Positions 16,309-20,500 of a stretch of DNA of 64,000 bases are shown here, piece by piece. The position numbers and the translations under genes were made by a program. Within the stretch, counting starts at the first letter, position 1. Every line of letters starts with the position of its first letter. The notes under the pieces are model-generated. The model was not told the origin of the DNA and made no database searches. It saw only the letters and a list, made by a program, of their open reading frames with translations. The DNA comes from Oscillibacter sp. (GTDB lineage: Bacteria > Bacillota > Clostridia > Oscillospirales > Oscillospiraceae): contig JAAVZX010000024.1 in NCBI GenBank assembly GCA_022791875.1, forward strand, positions 62,001 through 126,000, given 5' to 3'.

Positions 16309-17371
16309 GTTCTTCCTCCTGTTCCAGGACTTTCAGCGCTTCCGCGCAGCAGCGGGAAAAGGCCGAGGGGACGGCGTGAGAGCGCAGGGCGGCGGCGTCC
16401 ATCCATACAAATTCCGGAGGGCCGCTGCCGGAAACTTCCAGCGTGTAGTTGATCATACGCCACTCCACATGGGTAAAAATATGCCTGGACAGCAGCTTTG
16501 AACGCCATGCTTTGGGCGTCAGGCCCCAGGCGCTGACGGCCTCGGACGCGGCGGGCTCGGAGAGGGTGCTTTCCGCGTTCGGGAACTCCCAGAGGCTGGC
16601 CAGGAGGCCGGTGGGGGGGCGCTTGCGCAGGGCGATTTGGCTGCCGCGCAGGAGTAAGAAGACGGTTTTTTCTTCGATGCGGCGGGTCTTTTTCGGGGGC
16701 TTGACGGGAAGCGTCGGGGCGGTGCCGCGGGCGTGGCCCAGGCAGTTGTCCCGCAGGGGGCACAAAAAACATTGGGGCGGGCCGTTGGGGCCGCAGATGG
16801 TGGCTCCCAGCTCCATCAGGGCTTGGTTGAAGATGGGGATGTCCGATGCGTCTTCGGGGAAGATGCTTTGGACTTGGGCGCGGATTTTTTTCCGGGCTGC
16901 GGGGGCTATTATGTCGTCGCGGCAGTCCGTCAGGCGCGTGACGAGGCGCAGGACGTTTCCGTCTACGGCGGCTTCCCGTTGGCCGAAGGCCGCGGACGCG
17001 ATGGCGGCGGCGGTGTATTCGCCGATGCCGGGGAGGGTCAGGAGGCCCGTGTAGTCCTCCGGAAAGCCGCCGCGGGCCGCGACGATTTGGGCCGCTTTTT
17101 GCAGATTGCGGGCGCGGCTGTAGTAGCCTAGACCCTCCCAGTGCTTGAGAAGCACGTCCTCCGGGGCCTCCGCTAAAGCCTCCACCGACGGGAACGCTTC
17201 GAGAAAACGGGCATAGTAGCCCAGGACCGCCGCTACCCGCGTCTGCTGGAGCATGATCTCTGATACCCATATTTTGTAGGGGTCCCGCGTGTTCCGCCAG
17301 GGGAGGGGGCGGGCGTTCGCGCGGAACCAGGTCAGAAGCGGCGGTACGATGGTTGATAAATTTTGTTTCAT
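16286..17371 (-). CDS. mutY: A/G-specific adenine glycosylase
   Basis: A 361-residue MutY, which removes adenine mispaired with 8-oxoguanine in base excision repair. It has the SEIMLQQTRV motif with E38, the helix-hairpin-helix LPGIGEYTAAAI (from residue 113), the catalytic Asp D137 in AVDGNV, and iron-sulfur ligands C193, C201, C204 and C210 (one residue longer than usual in the first gap). The C-terminal ~110 residues are the NUDIX-like 8-oxoG-recognition domain. The ATG at 17371 fits the family start. The promoter's -10 element ends only seven bases before it, so the mRNA may be leaderless. It leads a five-gene operon. Confidence 0.93.
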   Translation of the reverse strand: MKQNLSTIVPPLLTWFRANARPLPWRNTRDPYKIWVSEIMLQQTRVAAVLGYYARFLEAFPSVEALAEAPEDVLLKHWEGLGYYSRARNLQKAAQIVAARGGFPEDYTGLLTLPGIGEYTAAAIASAAFGQREAAVDGNVLRLVTRLTDCRDDIIAPAARKKIRAQVQSIFPEDASDIPIFNQALMELGATICGPNGPPQCFLCPLRDNCLGHARGTAPTLPVKPPKKTRRIEEKTVFLLLRGSQIALRKRPPTGLLASLWEFPNAESTLSEPAASEAVSAWGLTPKAWRSKLLSRHIFTHVEWRMINYTLEVSGSGPPEFVWMDAAALRSHAVPSAFSRCCAEALKVLEQEEEHGNLEQE

Positions 17372-17378
17372 GGGTTGT

Positions 17379-17406
17379 ATTATACCATATAACTTGGAGT
17401 TTGCAA
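17379..17406 (-). promoter_or_regulatory. Promoter of the mutY operon
   Basis: TTGCAA and TATAAT on the minus strand, 16 bases apart. Only seven bases separate TATAAT from the ATG. Confidence 0.6.
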
Positions 17407-17410
17407 GAGC

Positions 17411-17525
17411 CTGGAGGGGGGCCTTTTCGCACGGCCCCCTGGCCCCCCACCAGGGGCGCTGCCCCTGGACCCTGCCAGGGGGAACGTTTCCCCTGCCAGC
17501 CGGGCACCCGGCCTGGACCCCTCCA
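17411..17525 (+). repeat. Dispersed repeat family A, variant copy 3
   Basis: Variant assembled from A-type modules: CACCAGGGGCGCTGCCCCTGGACCC, GGGGGAACGTTTCCCC and GCCGGGCACCCGGC. It lies between the divergent mutY and MerR promoters. Confidence 0.7.
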
Positions 17526-17569
17526 AACCGCGCTCTTTTGTTACTTTTTGCAAATTCACAAATTTGCTC

Positions 17570-17600
17570 TTGACCTTCCACCTGCTGGAAGGTGTATGAT
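17570..17600 (+). promoter_or_regulatory. MerR-type promoter with 19-bp spacer and operator dyad
   Basis: TTGACC and TATGAT are separated by 19 bases, the overlong spacing typical of MerR-controlled promoters. A perfect dyad ACCTTCCA - 5 bases - TGGAAGGT (17573-17593) fills the spacer. It lies 25 bases before the merR-like ATG, indicating autoregulation. Confidence 0.85.
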
Positions 17601-17624
17601 AGGCATATCAAGGGGGTGGTTCCC

Positions 17625-18269
17625 ATGAAAATCAATGAGGTGGAGGCCTTGGTGGGCATCACGCGGAAAAATATCCGCTTCTATGAGTCCGAGGGGCTGC
17701 TGGCGCCGCGGCGGAACTCGGAGAACGGGTACCGCGATTACGGCGAGGCCGAGGTCGAGGTGCTCCAGCGGATTAAGCTCTTTCGGAAGCTGGGCGTGCC
17801 CCTGGAGGAGATTCGCCAGATGCAGAGCGGGACCCATACCGTCGGGGACGGGATGCGGCGGCACCTTGTCTCGCTGGAGCGGGATCGGGAAAATTTGGAG
17901 CAGTCTATCCGGCTTTGTACCCGGCTTACCGGGTGCCAGGAGCGCTTTGGGGATTTGGACGCCGCTGCCGTGCTGGACGAGATGTCCGTTATGGAACAGA
18001 CGGGGACTACTTTCCAGAATAAGCAGAAAAGGGACGTCGGGATTCGGTACGTGGCTCCGGTGGCGATTACCTTGGCGATTGTGCTGCTGATGGGGGCGTT
18101 CTGCGCGGTGCTGGTGTGGGGGCTCCTGTTCGAGGGGGCGTCGCCGTGGCCGCTGGTCGTGACCGTGCTGGCGGTGCCGCTGGTCATTATCGCGGGCGTT
18201 GTGTACGCGCTGGTGCAGAGGATTCGGGAAATCGGAAAGGGGGAGGAAGATGATGCGAAAAACTACTGA
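17625..18269 (+). CDS. MerR-family regulator with C-terminal membrane helices
   Basis: A 214-residue regulator. Residues 1-70 form the MerR winged HTH (MKINEVEALVGITRKNIRFYESEGLL, then NGYRDYG). Residues 80-125 form a coiled-coil dimer helix. Two strongly hydrophobic segments follow (about 143-169 and 175-198), and the chain ends in RIREIGKGEEDDAKNY. A MerR protein with its own membrane anchor is unusual; it suggests sensing at the membrane while DNA-bound. Start at 17625 with AAGGGGGTGG. It overlaps the next gene by about 17-20 bases; that gene and the third share the same hydrophobic-plus-tail C-terminus. The promoter has a MerR-type operator. Confidence 0.85.
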   Translation: MKINEVEALVGITRKNIRFYESEGLLAPRRNSENGYRDYGEAEVEVLQRIKLFRKLGVPLEEIRQMQSGTHTVGDGMRRHLVSLERDRENLEQSIRLCTRLTGCQERFGDLDAAAVLDEMSVMEQTGTTFQNKQKRDVGIRYVAPVAITLAIVLLMGAFCAVLVWGLLFEGASPWPLVVTVLAVPLVIIAGVVYALVQRIREIGKGEEDDAKNY

Positions 18270-18516
18270 CAGGAATCGTAAGAAAATCGCGCCGGTTGTG
18301 GTGGCGGTTCTGGTGGTGGTGTATCTTGCGCCGATCCTCTTGTTTGTGCTGTTGGCATTGGCGGGGGCGGCCGGGATGGAGGCAAGGCTGGCGCTGCCAA
18401 TTCTGGTGGGCTACCTCGTTCTGGGCGGGGCGGTGATCGGGGGCGTGGTGAAGGCTATGATGGAACGGCTCAGGGAGATCGATGGGGGCGAAGAGGATGA
18501 GGCAAGCAAATACTAG
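18253..18516 (+). CDS. Small two-helix membrane protein sharing the MerR tail
   Basis: An 87-residue protein with a basic N-terminus (RKTTDRNRKK), two hydrophobic segments and the tail RLREIDGGEEDEASKY. The helices and tail match the C-terminal half of the preceding MerR protein. The start at 18253 gives good spacing from GGAGG; an ATG at 18250 is equally in frame. It overlaps the end of the MerR gene and is surely in the same operon. I infer a partner or modulator that could pair with the regulator in the membrane. Function unknown. Confidence 0.7.
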   Translation: MRKTTDRNRKKIAPVVVAVLVVVYLAPILLFVLLALAGAAGMEARLALPILVGYLVLGGAVIGGVVKAMMERLREIDGGEEDEASKY

Positions 18517-18751
18517 GCGGGAGGTCAAGCGCAGGAACGCGGTGCGGGGGGCCGTGTCGTCCACGGTGTTCCAGCTGGCGGCGGCGGGGCTGCTGCTGTG
18601 GCTGCGGACGGGGATGGACGGCGTGCTCTCAATGTTGCTGCTGATTCTTGCCGTGTCCAATATCATTACCGTTGTGCCGATGTGGGTGTCCCTGCGGGAA
18701 CGGCTCAGGGAAATAGAAGGGGGTGAGGAAGAAGAAGCGGGCCAATATTAG
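18482..18751 (+). CDS. Second small membrane protein sharing the MerR tail
   Basis: An 89-residue protein with a basic N-terminus (RREVKRRNAVR), two hydrophobic segments (AVSSTVFQLAAAGLLLW and MLLLILAVSNIITVVPMWV) and the tail RLREIEGGEEEEAGQY. It is the third member of the operon to end in R-[IL]-R-E-I-x-[GK]-G-E-E. It overlaps the previous gene by 35 bases if the ATG at 18482 is used; an ATG at 18497 with a GGGGG site is a possible alternative. Function unknown; it may form membrane complexes with the two upstream products. Confidence 0.68.
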   Translation: MGAKRMRQANTRREVKRRNAVRGAVSSTVFQLAAAGLLLWLRTGMDGVLSMLLLILAVSNIITVVPMWVSLRERLREIEGGEEEEAGQY

Positions 18752-18756
18752 GGTGA

Positions 18757-18838
18757 TCTGGCGGAGTTCAGAGGGAACCGTTCCCTCTGGCAGGGTCCAG
18801 GGGCAGCGCCCCTGGCGGGGTCTGGGGCGGAGCCCCAG
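18757..18838 (+). repeat. Dispersed repeat family A, variant copy 4
   Basis: Modules GAGGGAACCGTTCCCTC, CAGGGGCAGCGCCCCTG and GGGGCGGAGCCCC in tandem, between the MerR operon and the YbjQ gene. Confidence 0.7.
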
Positions 18839-18873
18839 TGCGGAGACTAACAATATACAGGAGGTTGTTTATT

Positions 18874-19185
18874 ATGCTGCTTTTGAACATTGACCATGTG
18901 CCGGGAAAGGAAATCGAGGCTTTGGGGATCGTGAAGGGAACGGTCGTGCAGTCCAAGAATTTCGGCAAGGATTTTATGGCCGGGATGAAGACGCTGGTGG
19001 GCGGCGAGATCGTCGGGTATACCGAGATGTTGATCGAGGCGCGGCAGATCGCTACCAAGCGGATGGTGGACGAGGCCCAGGCGCTGGGGGCCGATGCCGT
19101 TGTCAATATCCGGTTCGGGTCCTCGTCTGTGATGCAGGGGGCCGCGGAGGTCATCGCTTATGGCACCGCTGTGAAGGTGCGGTGA
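18874..19185 (+). CDS. YbjQ / UPF0145 family protein
   Basis: A 103-residue YbjQ-family (UPF0145) protein, a small oligomeric cytosolic fold sometimes labelled heavy-metal-binding. Typical segments are VPGKEIEALGIVKGTVV, a GGEIVGYTEMLIEAR helix, and a MVDEAQALGADAVVNIRF repeat near the end. The ATG has CAGGAGG nine bases upstream. Length is normal. Its stop overlaps the next gene's start (TGATG), so the two are coupled. Biochemical role is not known. Confidence 0.85.
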   Translation: MLLLNIDHVPGKEIEALGIVKGTVVQSKNFGKDFMAGMKTLVGGEIVGYTEMLIEARQIATKRMVDEAQALGADAVVNIRFGSSSVMQGAAEVIAYGTAVKVR

Positions 19186-19895
19186 TGCGGGTTACGTTTC
19201 TGGAGCACAGCGGGTTTCTGGTGGAGACCGGGAGCGCCGCGCTGCTGTTTGATTGGTGGAAAGGGGAACTCCCGGCGGTCGCGCCGGGGGTCCCTTTGTG
19301 CGTGTTCGTCAGCCATTGGCATGAGGACCATTTCAGCCCGCGGGTGTTTTCCCTGGACGATGGGGCGCGGGAGGTGCGGTTTGTGCTGGGGCATGGGATT
19401 CGGCTGAGCGAGCGGAATCTGGAGCGGTGGGGCGTCTCGCAGGGGACGGCGGAGAAGTGCCGGGTTCTGCGGGGCGGGGAGCGCTGTGCGCTGCCGTGGT
19501 GCGGGGTGGAGGCGCTCTCGTCTACCGACGAGGGGGTCGCGTTTTTGGTTTCCGTGGATGGAAAGACCGTGTTCCATGCCGGGGATTTGAATTGGTGGCA
19601 TTGGGAGGGGGAGGATAAGGCGTGGAATCATAATATGGCCGCTAATTTTAAGAGGTTCGCGGAGCCGCTTCGGGGGCGGCGGATCGATCTGGCTATGCTT
19701 CCGCTGGATTCGCGGCTGGGAGAGGCCGGGTTCTGGGGGCCGAAGTATTTTCTGGAGCTGGCGGAGATTCGGACGTTTCTGCCCATGCACCAGTGGGGGG
19801 ATTTCGGGTTTACCGGGATGTTTCTGGAACGGTATCCGGAGTTTGTGGGGCGGACGGTGCCGGTGGAACATGATAAGCAACAGTTTATTTTATAA
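19185..19895 (+). CDS. MBL-fold metallo-hydrolase
   Basis: A 236-residue metallo-beta-lactamase-fold protein. The metal-binding HxHxDH motif is at H44, H46, D48 and H49 (SHWHEDHF), followed by GHGIRLSE and an HAGDLNWWHW segment with the second-metal ligands. This is the UlaG-like/YycJ-distant class used for hydrolysis of phosphoesters or lactones; the substrate cannot be told. The ATG overlaps the TGA of the YbjQ gene, and a strong bidirectional terminator follows. Confidence 0.82.
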   Translation: MRVTFLEHSGFLVETGSAALLFDWWKGELPAVAPGVPLCVFVSHWHEDHFSPRVFSLDDGAREVRFVLGHGIRLSERNLERWGVSQGTAEKCRVLRGGERCALPWCGVEALSSTDEGVAFLVSVDGKTVFHAGDLNWWHWEGEDKAWNHNMAANFKRFAEPLRGRRIDLAMLPLDSRLGEAGFWGPKYFLELAEIRTFLPMHQWGDFGFTGMFLERYPEFVGRTVPVEHDKQQFIL

Positions 19896-19900
19896 ATGAA

Positions 19901-19926
19901 GACCGCCGGGGGGCCGGCGGTCTTTT
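19901..19926. terminator. Bidirectional terminator between MBL gene and cdd
   Basis: Stem GACCGCCGG / CCGGCGGTC with four-base loop and T run. Confidence 0.8.
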
Positions 19927-19929
19927 GGG

Positions 19930-20328
19930 TTATTCTTTTAATAGGTAGTCGGGGCCGAAGCCGTGGGGGAGGAGGACCCGGAGGGGGACGGACAGTTCTT
20001 CGCCTTTGGCGTTGAGGGAGATGACCTCCATGTCGGGGTTGAACTCGTACAGGAGCTGGCGGCAGACGCCGCAGGGGGTGCAGAAGTTTTCGCTGCGTCC
20101 GGCGACTACGATGCGGACGAAGTCGGTGTGGCCCTCACTGACGGCTTTGCCGACGGCGACGCGCTCGGCGCAGAGGGTTGGAGAGTAGGCAGCGTTTTCG
20201 ATGTTGCAGCCGGTGAAGACCTCGCCGTCGGAGCATTCCAGGGCCGCGCCGACGGGAAAGTGGGAATAGGGCACATAGGAACGGTCCAGCATGGAGACAG
20301 CCAGTTTTTTCAGTTCATCCAAAGTCAT
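19930..20328 (-). CDS. cdd: Cytidine deaminase
   Basis: A 132-residue homotetrameric-type cytidine deaminase, converting (deoxy)cytidine to (deoxy)uridine in pyrimidine salvage. Zinc ligands are C53, C86 and C89 in CAERVA and PCGVCRQ, with E55 as the proton shuttle; the substrate loop SHFPVGAAL is at 22-30. Length matches the family. AAGGAGG precedes the ATG. It is flanked by the terminator on one side and a family A repeat on the other, so it is probably monocistronic. Confidence 0.95.
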   Translation of the reverse strand: MTLDELKKLAVSMLDRSYVPYSHFPVGAALECSDGEVFTGCNIENAAYSPTLCAERVAVGKAVSEGHTDFVRIVVAGRSENFCTPCGVCRQLLYEFNPDMEVISLNAKGEELSVPLRVLLPHGFGPDYLLKE

Positions 20329-20396
20329 AGTAAACCTCCTTCGCAGAAAGCCGCAAGATATGAAAAGACCACAATAAGCAATTGTTTACAAAAGAG

Positions 20397-20492
20397 GACT
20401 GATCTGCCAGGGCCCAGGGAGGCGCACGCCTCCCTGGTGGGAGTCCAGAGGGCAAAGCCCTCTGGCCGCCGGAGGCCCCCCGTAGGCAGGCA
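20397..20492 (+). repeat. Dispersed repeat family A, copy 5
   Basis: Nearly identical to the copies at 4074 and 63741: GATCTGCCAGGG start, GGGAGGCGCACGCCTCCC palindrome, GGAGGCCCCCCGTAGGCAGG end. Confidence 0.85.
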
Positions 20493-20500
20493 CCATTCGA

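Follow-up and report, generated by a model that had tools for sequence, protein, structure and literature searches.

Why should a MerR-type regulator carry membrane helices of its own, and why should it be followed by two small membrane proteins that end in the same tail? The question is raised by three overlapping plus-strand genes in a stretch of 64,000 nucleotides of Oscillibacter sp. DNA, the whole of which is called the window here (Table 1). An earlier note on this DNA had described a MerR helix-turn-helix protein with two C-terminal membrane helices, and two proteins of about 88 residues built of a basic head, two hydrophobic segments and a tail. Open reading frames, Pfam, hydropathy and a structural model bore out the first description; the second was confirmed for the two small proteins, called A and B below, and all three tails match the C-terminal motif that the note had drawn up for them. 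The unit extends to the next gene, which encodes a YbjQ family protein; the note had overlooked this constant partner, the operator and the overlap, in most relatives, of tail codons with the beginning and ribosome site of the gene that follows. The best explanation, to which we give a probability of about 60%, is a self-activating, membrane-tethered MerR switch for envelope stress that is linked to YbjQ through its tail. Oscillospiraceae gut bacteria appear to carry this membrane-tied switch, which probably turns on drug-efflux pumps and other genes that protect the envelope. The signal, the activation, the docking of YbjQ and the feedback by A and B are the parts of this reading that we infer.

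Table 1. Positions in the window of the promoter, genes and C-terminal tails of the MerR-TM locus.
Feature	Positions	Strand	Remarks
Promoter	17570..17600	+	-35 TTGACC at 17570-17575, 19-bp spacer, -10 TATGAT at 17595-17600; same layout in relatives
Candidate operator dyad ACCTTCC-N7-GGAAGGT	17573..17593	.	0 mismatches of 14; ≤2 in 76/80 relatives
MerR-TM: MerR regulator with C-terminal two-helix membrane hairpin and tail	17625..18269	+	214 aa; PF13411, model, relatives
MerR tail RIREIGKGEEDDAKNY	18219..18266	+	end overlaps start of A
Small protein A	18250..18516	+	88 aa; basic head, two helices, tail; kin of MerR membrane half and lone YbjQ partner
Tail of A, RLREIDGGEEDEASKY	18466..18513	+	end overlaps start of B
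Small protein B	18497..18751	+	84 aa from inner ATG; basic head, two hydrophobic segments, tail
Tail of B, RLREIEGGEEEEAGQY	18701..18748	+	no gene overlaps this tail in the window
YbjQ family protein (PF01906)	18874..19185	+	E 7.8e-38; constant downstream partner
Metallo-beta-lactamase fold protein (PF13483)	19185..19895	+	E 7.1e-8; downstream in part of the relatives

Among the five genes, the products of three exceeded a Pfam cut-off: the regulator, here MerR-TM (MerR_1, E 4e-20, 72.1 bits against a cut-off of 21.6), YbjQ (129.7 bits against 23) and the metallo-beta-lactamase-fold protein. A and B matched no Pfam family above cut-off, and an Rfam scan of positions 17000-20500 returned no family. 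The YbjQ gene is the sole copy found in this genome. A G+C-rich repeat that is dispersed between genes flanks the block of promoter, MerR-TM, A and B with two inverted 48-nt copies of 94% complementarity, at 17445-17492 and 18773-18820, the right copy sitting in the gap between B and YbjQ; with up to three mismatches allowed, the core pattern of this repeat turns up 11 times in the window, where 0.22 would be expected.

The model of MerR-TM (mean pLDDT 85.6) has a winged helix-turn-helix, a helix at residues 73-102 that is taken as the dimerisation helix, a helix at 113-125, and two long helices at 135-170 and 175-213, with pLDDT below 50 for residues 207-214. Its nearest solved folds were CadR, a Listeria MerR-like protein and CueR, with MtaN also matched; for the membrane half, no solved relative was found (best E 0.78). 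Kyte-Doolittle averages over 19 residues exceeded 1.6 in two segments in all 80 MerR-TM relatives, in 39 of 39 A proteins and in 34 of 39 B proteins, and the outer loops had median lengths of 12-15.5 residues by hydropathy. Under the positive-inside rule, basic parts flanking membrane helices face the cytoplasm; because the heads are basic and the outer loops short, head and tail of these hairpins should both lie in the cytoplasm. A DNA-binding domain and a predicted transmembrane region are thus combined in one protein, as in the description of transmembrane transcription regulators given in PMC10269533. Membrane-bound MerR proteins may be commoner in the family than MerR-TM alone: MerR N-termini are joined to a membrane protein of about 370 residues, RDD-like by eye, in four other cases, and to other hydrophobic ends in three more.

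Conservation was followed in two sets of genomes. A broad sample of 101 genomes of the family gave 17 loci, the window's own included, with full or nearly full MerR-TM, and YbjQ was nearby in all 17 by tblastn. Small tail genes were present in nine of these loci and absent from the other eight, where YbjQ overlaps the end of the MerR-TM gene. The close relatives are the best 80 of at least 501 confirmed in a scan of public genomes and are not independent of one another; they are named Oscillibacter, Dysosmobacter, Lawsonibacter, Colidextribacter, Oscillospiraceae or unresolved bins, with a few bins under other genera. All 80 of these best matches have YbjQ downstream and on the strand of MerR-TM, and between the two at least one tail-bearing small frame occurs in 77 and two occur in 60; the figure of 77 counts stop-to-stop frames that match a tail regular expression and takes in two loci, L059 and L070, in which the tail end is altered. 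Statistics for A and B refer to the 39 of the 80 loci that have exactly two regular small genes. A metallo-beta-lactamase-fold gene follows YbjQ in 36 of the 80, within the flanking DNA covered. The arrangement of MerR-TM is not a product of chance, since the profile of its C-terminal half is nearly specific in its own genome and the layout recurs in relatives. The expectation that the small genes stay beside the MerR gene was borne out in the close relatives but failed in the eight broader loci, and because of that absence we regard MerR-TM and YbjQ as the core.

The small genes vary in other respects. Three or four tail-bearing hairpins, some of them truncated or divergent, stand between MerR-TM and YbjQ in four of the 80 loci, which suggests ongoing duplication. 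About 0.9-1.1 kb parts A from B in nine Oscillibacter or Oscillospiraceae loci; there, the tail of A is kept without an ATG, and most B frames are without the usual N/T-T-D start. In one further locus, the gene that overlaps the MerR end by 20 nt has a start resembling the others (MTQNNTD), and its 99-residue product ends without the tail.

Is the tail peculiar to this regulator? Run against the window's own genome, which is 84.6% complete, the profile of the C-terminal half found the three window genes and one weak match (E 0.06) that stops short of the tail, a result that rules out a generic protein end there. The tail is not specific to MerR either, as it ends YbjQ partners in loci elsewhere that have no MerR. 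Among 290 other genomes of a class-wide sample, the profile matched 18, each with a lone hairpin protein whose gene overlaps that of YbjQ; these proteins are mostly of about 75-90 residues and end like ERIKEIRSGEEDDLSKY, and one of their frames has an internal stop. A phylum-wide sample of 398 genomes gave 19 matches, three of them seen in the earlier samples. YbjQ lies behind the tail protein in eight of the nine new loci that were read and was not found for the ninth; three of the seven weaker matches outside these nine are without the tail. The reverse search, upstream of 29 YbjQ loci in another class sample, found a tail protein directly before YbjQ in eight, two of them also among the earlier 18. 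All eight belong to the 11 loci in which YbjQ has a MILVNT-like start, as against none of the 18 with a MIITTT-like start; before one YbjQ with a MILVNT-like start stands a hairpin without the tail. On these comparisons, the tail is a feature of an older family of two-helix YbjQ partners that occurs without any MerR.

Kinship among the hairpins was assessed with the tail removed. A profile of lone tail proteins (14 of the 18, near-identical, interrupted and incomplete ones having been dropped), shortened by its last 17 residues, matched 19 of 39 A proteins, 25 of 80 MerR-TM C-terminal halves and none of 39 B proteins at E<0.01, and no shuffled control. At the same threshold, the tailless MerR-TM C-terminal half likewise matched A in 18 of 39 cases, where shuffled controls reached at most 7.7 bits, and B in none of 39, the best B reaching 11.2 bits against a shuffled maximum of 15.0 bits; A recognised B weakly (5/39). 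The best view of MerR-TM is therefore that of a MerR domain joined to a YbjQ partner, with A as another copy of that partner. Once the tail is removed, the idea that B copies the MerR hairpin finds no support, and B is best taken for a tail-bearing protein whose hairpin is of unclear origin. The earlier note had called both small proteins "decoy" copies of the regulator's membrane half; A is detectable kin even without the tail, but B is linked mainly by the tail.

The decoy idea can be put more generally: A and B may be decoys or hetero-oligomer partners that pack on the MerR-TM hairpin and restrain or tune it, independently of YbjQ. The kinship of A would suit such packing, and the overlap of the genes suggests coupled dosage. 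B, with no likeness to the MerR hairpin beyond its tail, does not fit, nor does the occurrence of tail and hairpin beside YbjQ without MerR; and decoys cannot be essential, because eight of the 17 broader loci have no small gene. We consider this alternative unlikely.

The tail might also have no function as protein, being a frame shadow of the following gene's ribosome site and start codons that was copied along with the duplications. Among 229 tails, 188 run into the beginning of another tail gene or of YbjQ, by 17 or 20 nt and in a single case by 26 nt; the GEE codons serve as ribosome site for the gene that follows, and DDLSKY-stop, read by eye in another frame, is MILVNTD, the YbjQ start. 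Nine of the other 41 are overlapped by another open reading frame in a different frame, six of them by 17 or 20 nt and three by a weak TTG at 4 nt. The six include L059 and L070, where the overlapping gene is YbjQ itself with a different start and the tail has lost its final Y, in keeping with a frame shadow. Distant YbjQ pairs, too, retain little of the tail beyond the overlapped tip, and there frame overlap may explain the tip. The remaining 32 tails, overlapped by no frame of at least 40 codons and many of them without an ATG, count against the shadow: all 32, which come from related loci and are not independent cases, keep the A and the final Y, neither of which the search expression demanded. 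R, E and GE are also kept in 32 of 32, but the expression required them in the 26 small proteins, the six MerR tails having passed no such filter. In addition, R-x-x-E-I precedes the overlap. Frame overlap as the whole cause of the tail is ruled out by the 32 copies, and we regard a tail devoid of protein function as improbable, the least probable of the alternatives considered here. Six of the 80 loci have YbjQ fused in frame to a B-like hairpin whose tail has been lost, through linkers that differ in length by whole codons. Such fusions fit, without proving, a tail whose job is to hold YbjQ; a stretch resembling a ribosome site is kept before the YbjQ start, so that YbjQ is possibly also made alone.

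What the switch might control was approached through its operator. A dyad inside a 19-20 bp promoter spacer, as is characteristic of the MerR family, is present in the window and before MerR-TM in 76 of the 80 relatives; all 76 share the 7-base centre, and in 74 of them the operator lies 46-88 nt before the MerR start. The window operator equals the published CueR signal, ACCTTCCC-(5)-TGGAAGGT with a 19-bp spacer (PMC1526738), so that another MerR could use the same sites. In its own genome, two further exact sites precede genes for a beta-lactamase-fold protein and a TolC-like protein. Exact sites were found in 27 of 200 family genomes, 23 of the 52 with the tail profile as compared with 4 of the 148 without (P 3.6e-12), an enrichment that is largely the operon's own promoter. 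Sites away from that promoter occurred in 10 of 52 and 4 of 148 genomes, respectively (P 2.9e-4).

The sites that were read comprise 16 of the 17 non-operon ones from the 200 family genomes (that of G456 was left out) and 41 from 50 of the 80 relatives. Of 58 operator sites, 46 have TANNNT at a spacing of 19 bp. Dropping the own-operon site of L255, a contig-end copy of another locus's operator (L224, copy of L090) and a 41-base stub (L227) left 55, of which 45 precede five gene groups, as sorted with representatives drawn from those same sites: beta-lactamase fold (16), HlyD-MacB (13, four of them behind a TetR gene), TolC-like (8, seven with an HlyD gene), ABC exporter (6) and YhfC (2). The other ten comprise three single cases, one internal and in front of YbjQ, one before a PLD-domain protein akin to cardiolipin synthase and one before a protein that by eye is alpha/beta hydrolase-like, and seven in no group, one of which precedes what reads by eye as another ABC exporter. 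The three sites read in genomes lacking the tail profile fell outside all groups. Directly behind YbjQ, five of the eight loci without small genes encode the ATPase of the ABC exporter group (58-62% identity), and the distant sites are therefore tied to the MerR-TM operon by an independent route. The earlier suggestion that membrane stress is sensed accords with this candidate regulon of efflux, exporter and beta-lactamase-fold genes. In two loci, L255 and L257, a gene for a YhfC-type intramembrane metalloprotease with its own operator copy lies just upstream of MerR-TM (PF10086 by Pfam in the former, 61% identical in the latter); this protease could cleave MerR-TM.

The identity of the operator with the CueR signal raises the alternative of a CueR-type metal or thiol sensor that happens to be membrane-bound, with YbjQ as its metal partner. 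CadR and CueR being among the closest folds would agree with this, as would a cysteine, C98, that is invariant in 40 of 40 proteins and the Pfam description of YbjQ as a putative heavy-metal-binding protein. MerR-TM nevertheless lacks the cysteine pair or triple of CueR and CadR sensors, no second conserved cysteine having been found (the next best is kept in 9 of 40), and it scores far below the equivalog cut-offs, 53.1 against 147.4 for CueR and 45.3 against 151.45 for CadR-PbrR; nor is there a metal pump within the five recurring target groups. We judge this alternative quite unlikely, slightly more so than the decoy one. C98, which lies in the long helix, could add thiol control to the preferred membrane-tethered switch.

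In that switch, a MerR-TM dimer would sit on the 19-bp-spacer promoter of its own operon and of distant operons for efflux pumps, exporters and hydrolases. The two membrane helices, with their very short outer loop, would sense disturbance of the bilayer; relayed by the dimerisation helix, the signal would twist the DNA into an active promoter. The signal is probably borne by the membrane, because a short-loop hairpin leaves no room for a soluble ligand domain and the candidate targets concern efflux and the envelope; it would probably be the bilayer itself, a lipid-active compound or a membrane partner. The membrane half of MerR-TM would derive from a small two-helix partner of cytoplasmic YbjQ, and the shared tail would most likely hold YbjQ, or a factor shared with YbjQ, at the membrane. 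Produced in the same burst of expression, A, and B with it, would be additional carriers of the tail that strengthen the anchoring of YbjQ and damp the switch by competing for the same partner. Of these steps, YbjQ docking at the tails and feedback through the small proteins are those of which we are least sure. A more far-reaching version can be put forward only tentatively, namely a one-component envelope-stress system in which a MerR domain was fused to an ancestral YbjQ anchor, the tail arose from gene overlap and later became a protein motif that docks a YbjQ ring, and tailed hairpins compete for the ring and so set the output of the efflux regulon. If this version holds, YbjQ gains a role.

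By comparison with known systems, the locus belongs with MerR regulators and with transmembrane transcription regulators, but not with the metal-sensing MerR groups, LytTR systems or ToxR/ToxS-type partners. MerR activators such as CueR, CadR, BmrR and Mta resemble it in their helix-turn-helix and dimerisation helix, their operator in a long promoter spacer and their efflux targets (PMC8113463, PMC11049809, PMC1526738), whereas MerR-TM has two C-terminal membrane helices in place of a soluble ligand domain and no metal cysteine pair. The word "membrane" is absent from the main text of a MerR review (PMC9909328), and in PMC10269533, on transmembrane regulators, the sole match to "merr" is the author name Merrell in the references. 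No title matching a membrane-bound MerR system of this design was found in the open-access literature searched, which is a part of all literature. If our reading is true, a membrane-sensing branch is added to the MerR family, and the locus shows a way in which bacteria of a gut lineage may perceive membrane-active compounds and induce MacAB-type pumps.

Classic examples of the ToxR, CadC and VtrA type are known for DNA-binding domains other than MerR. ToxR/ToxS, CadC and VtrA/VtrC share with this locus a membrane-tied DNA-binding domain and a small membrane partner in the operon (PMC10269533, PMC9214523); here, by contrast, the MerR domain is N-terminal to the helices, the partners have short outer loops and no outer domain of the kind that pairs with the regulator in ToxS-type partners, and YbjQ is in the operon. 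LytTR Regulatory Systems likewise join a regulator and a membrane protein in one operon, which is positively autoregulated there and in some cases includes an ABC transporter (PMC6193735). They differ in that their regulator is of the LytTR family with a separate membrane inhibitor and acts at direct repeats before the -35 (PMC6193735), unlike a MerR that bears the helices itself, has its dyad inside the spacer and is predicted to be autoregulated. Solved relatives of YbjQ (UPF0145, PF01906), namely 1Y2I, 2GTC and 1VR4, have five chains each, and what the locus adds to this picture is a two-helix tail partner and a link to MerR, of which earlier descriptions are possible. If true, the widespread and poorly understood YbjQ family gains a membrane partner and a setting, and the tail serves as an example of a C-terminal motif that possibly began as a by-product of gene overlap and was then kept for its own sake. 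In LiaS and SaeS, the intramembrane-sensing histidine kinases of Gram-positive envelope stress, a short-loop two-helix hairpin is the probable sensor. MerR-TM has the same kind of hairpin with a short outer loop, and differs from these kinases in being a one-component regulator.
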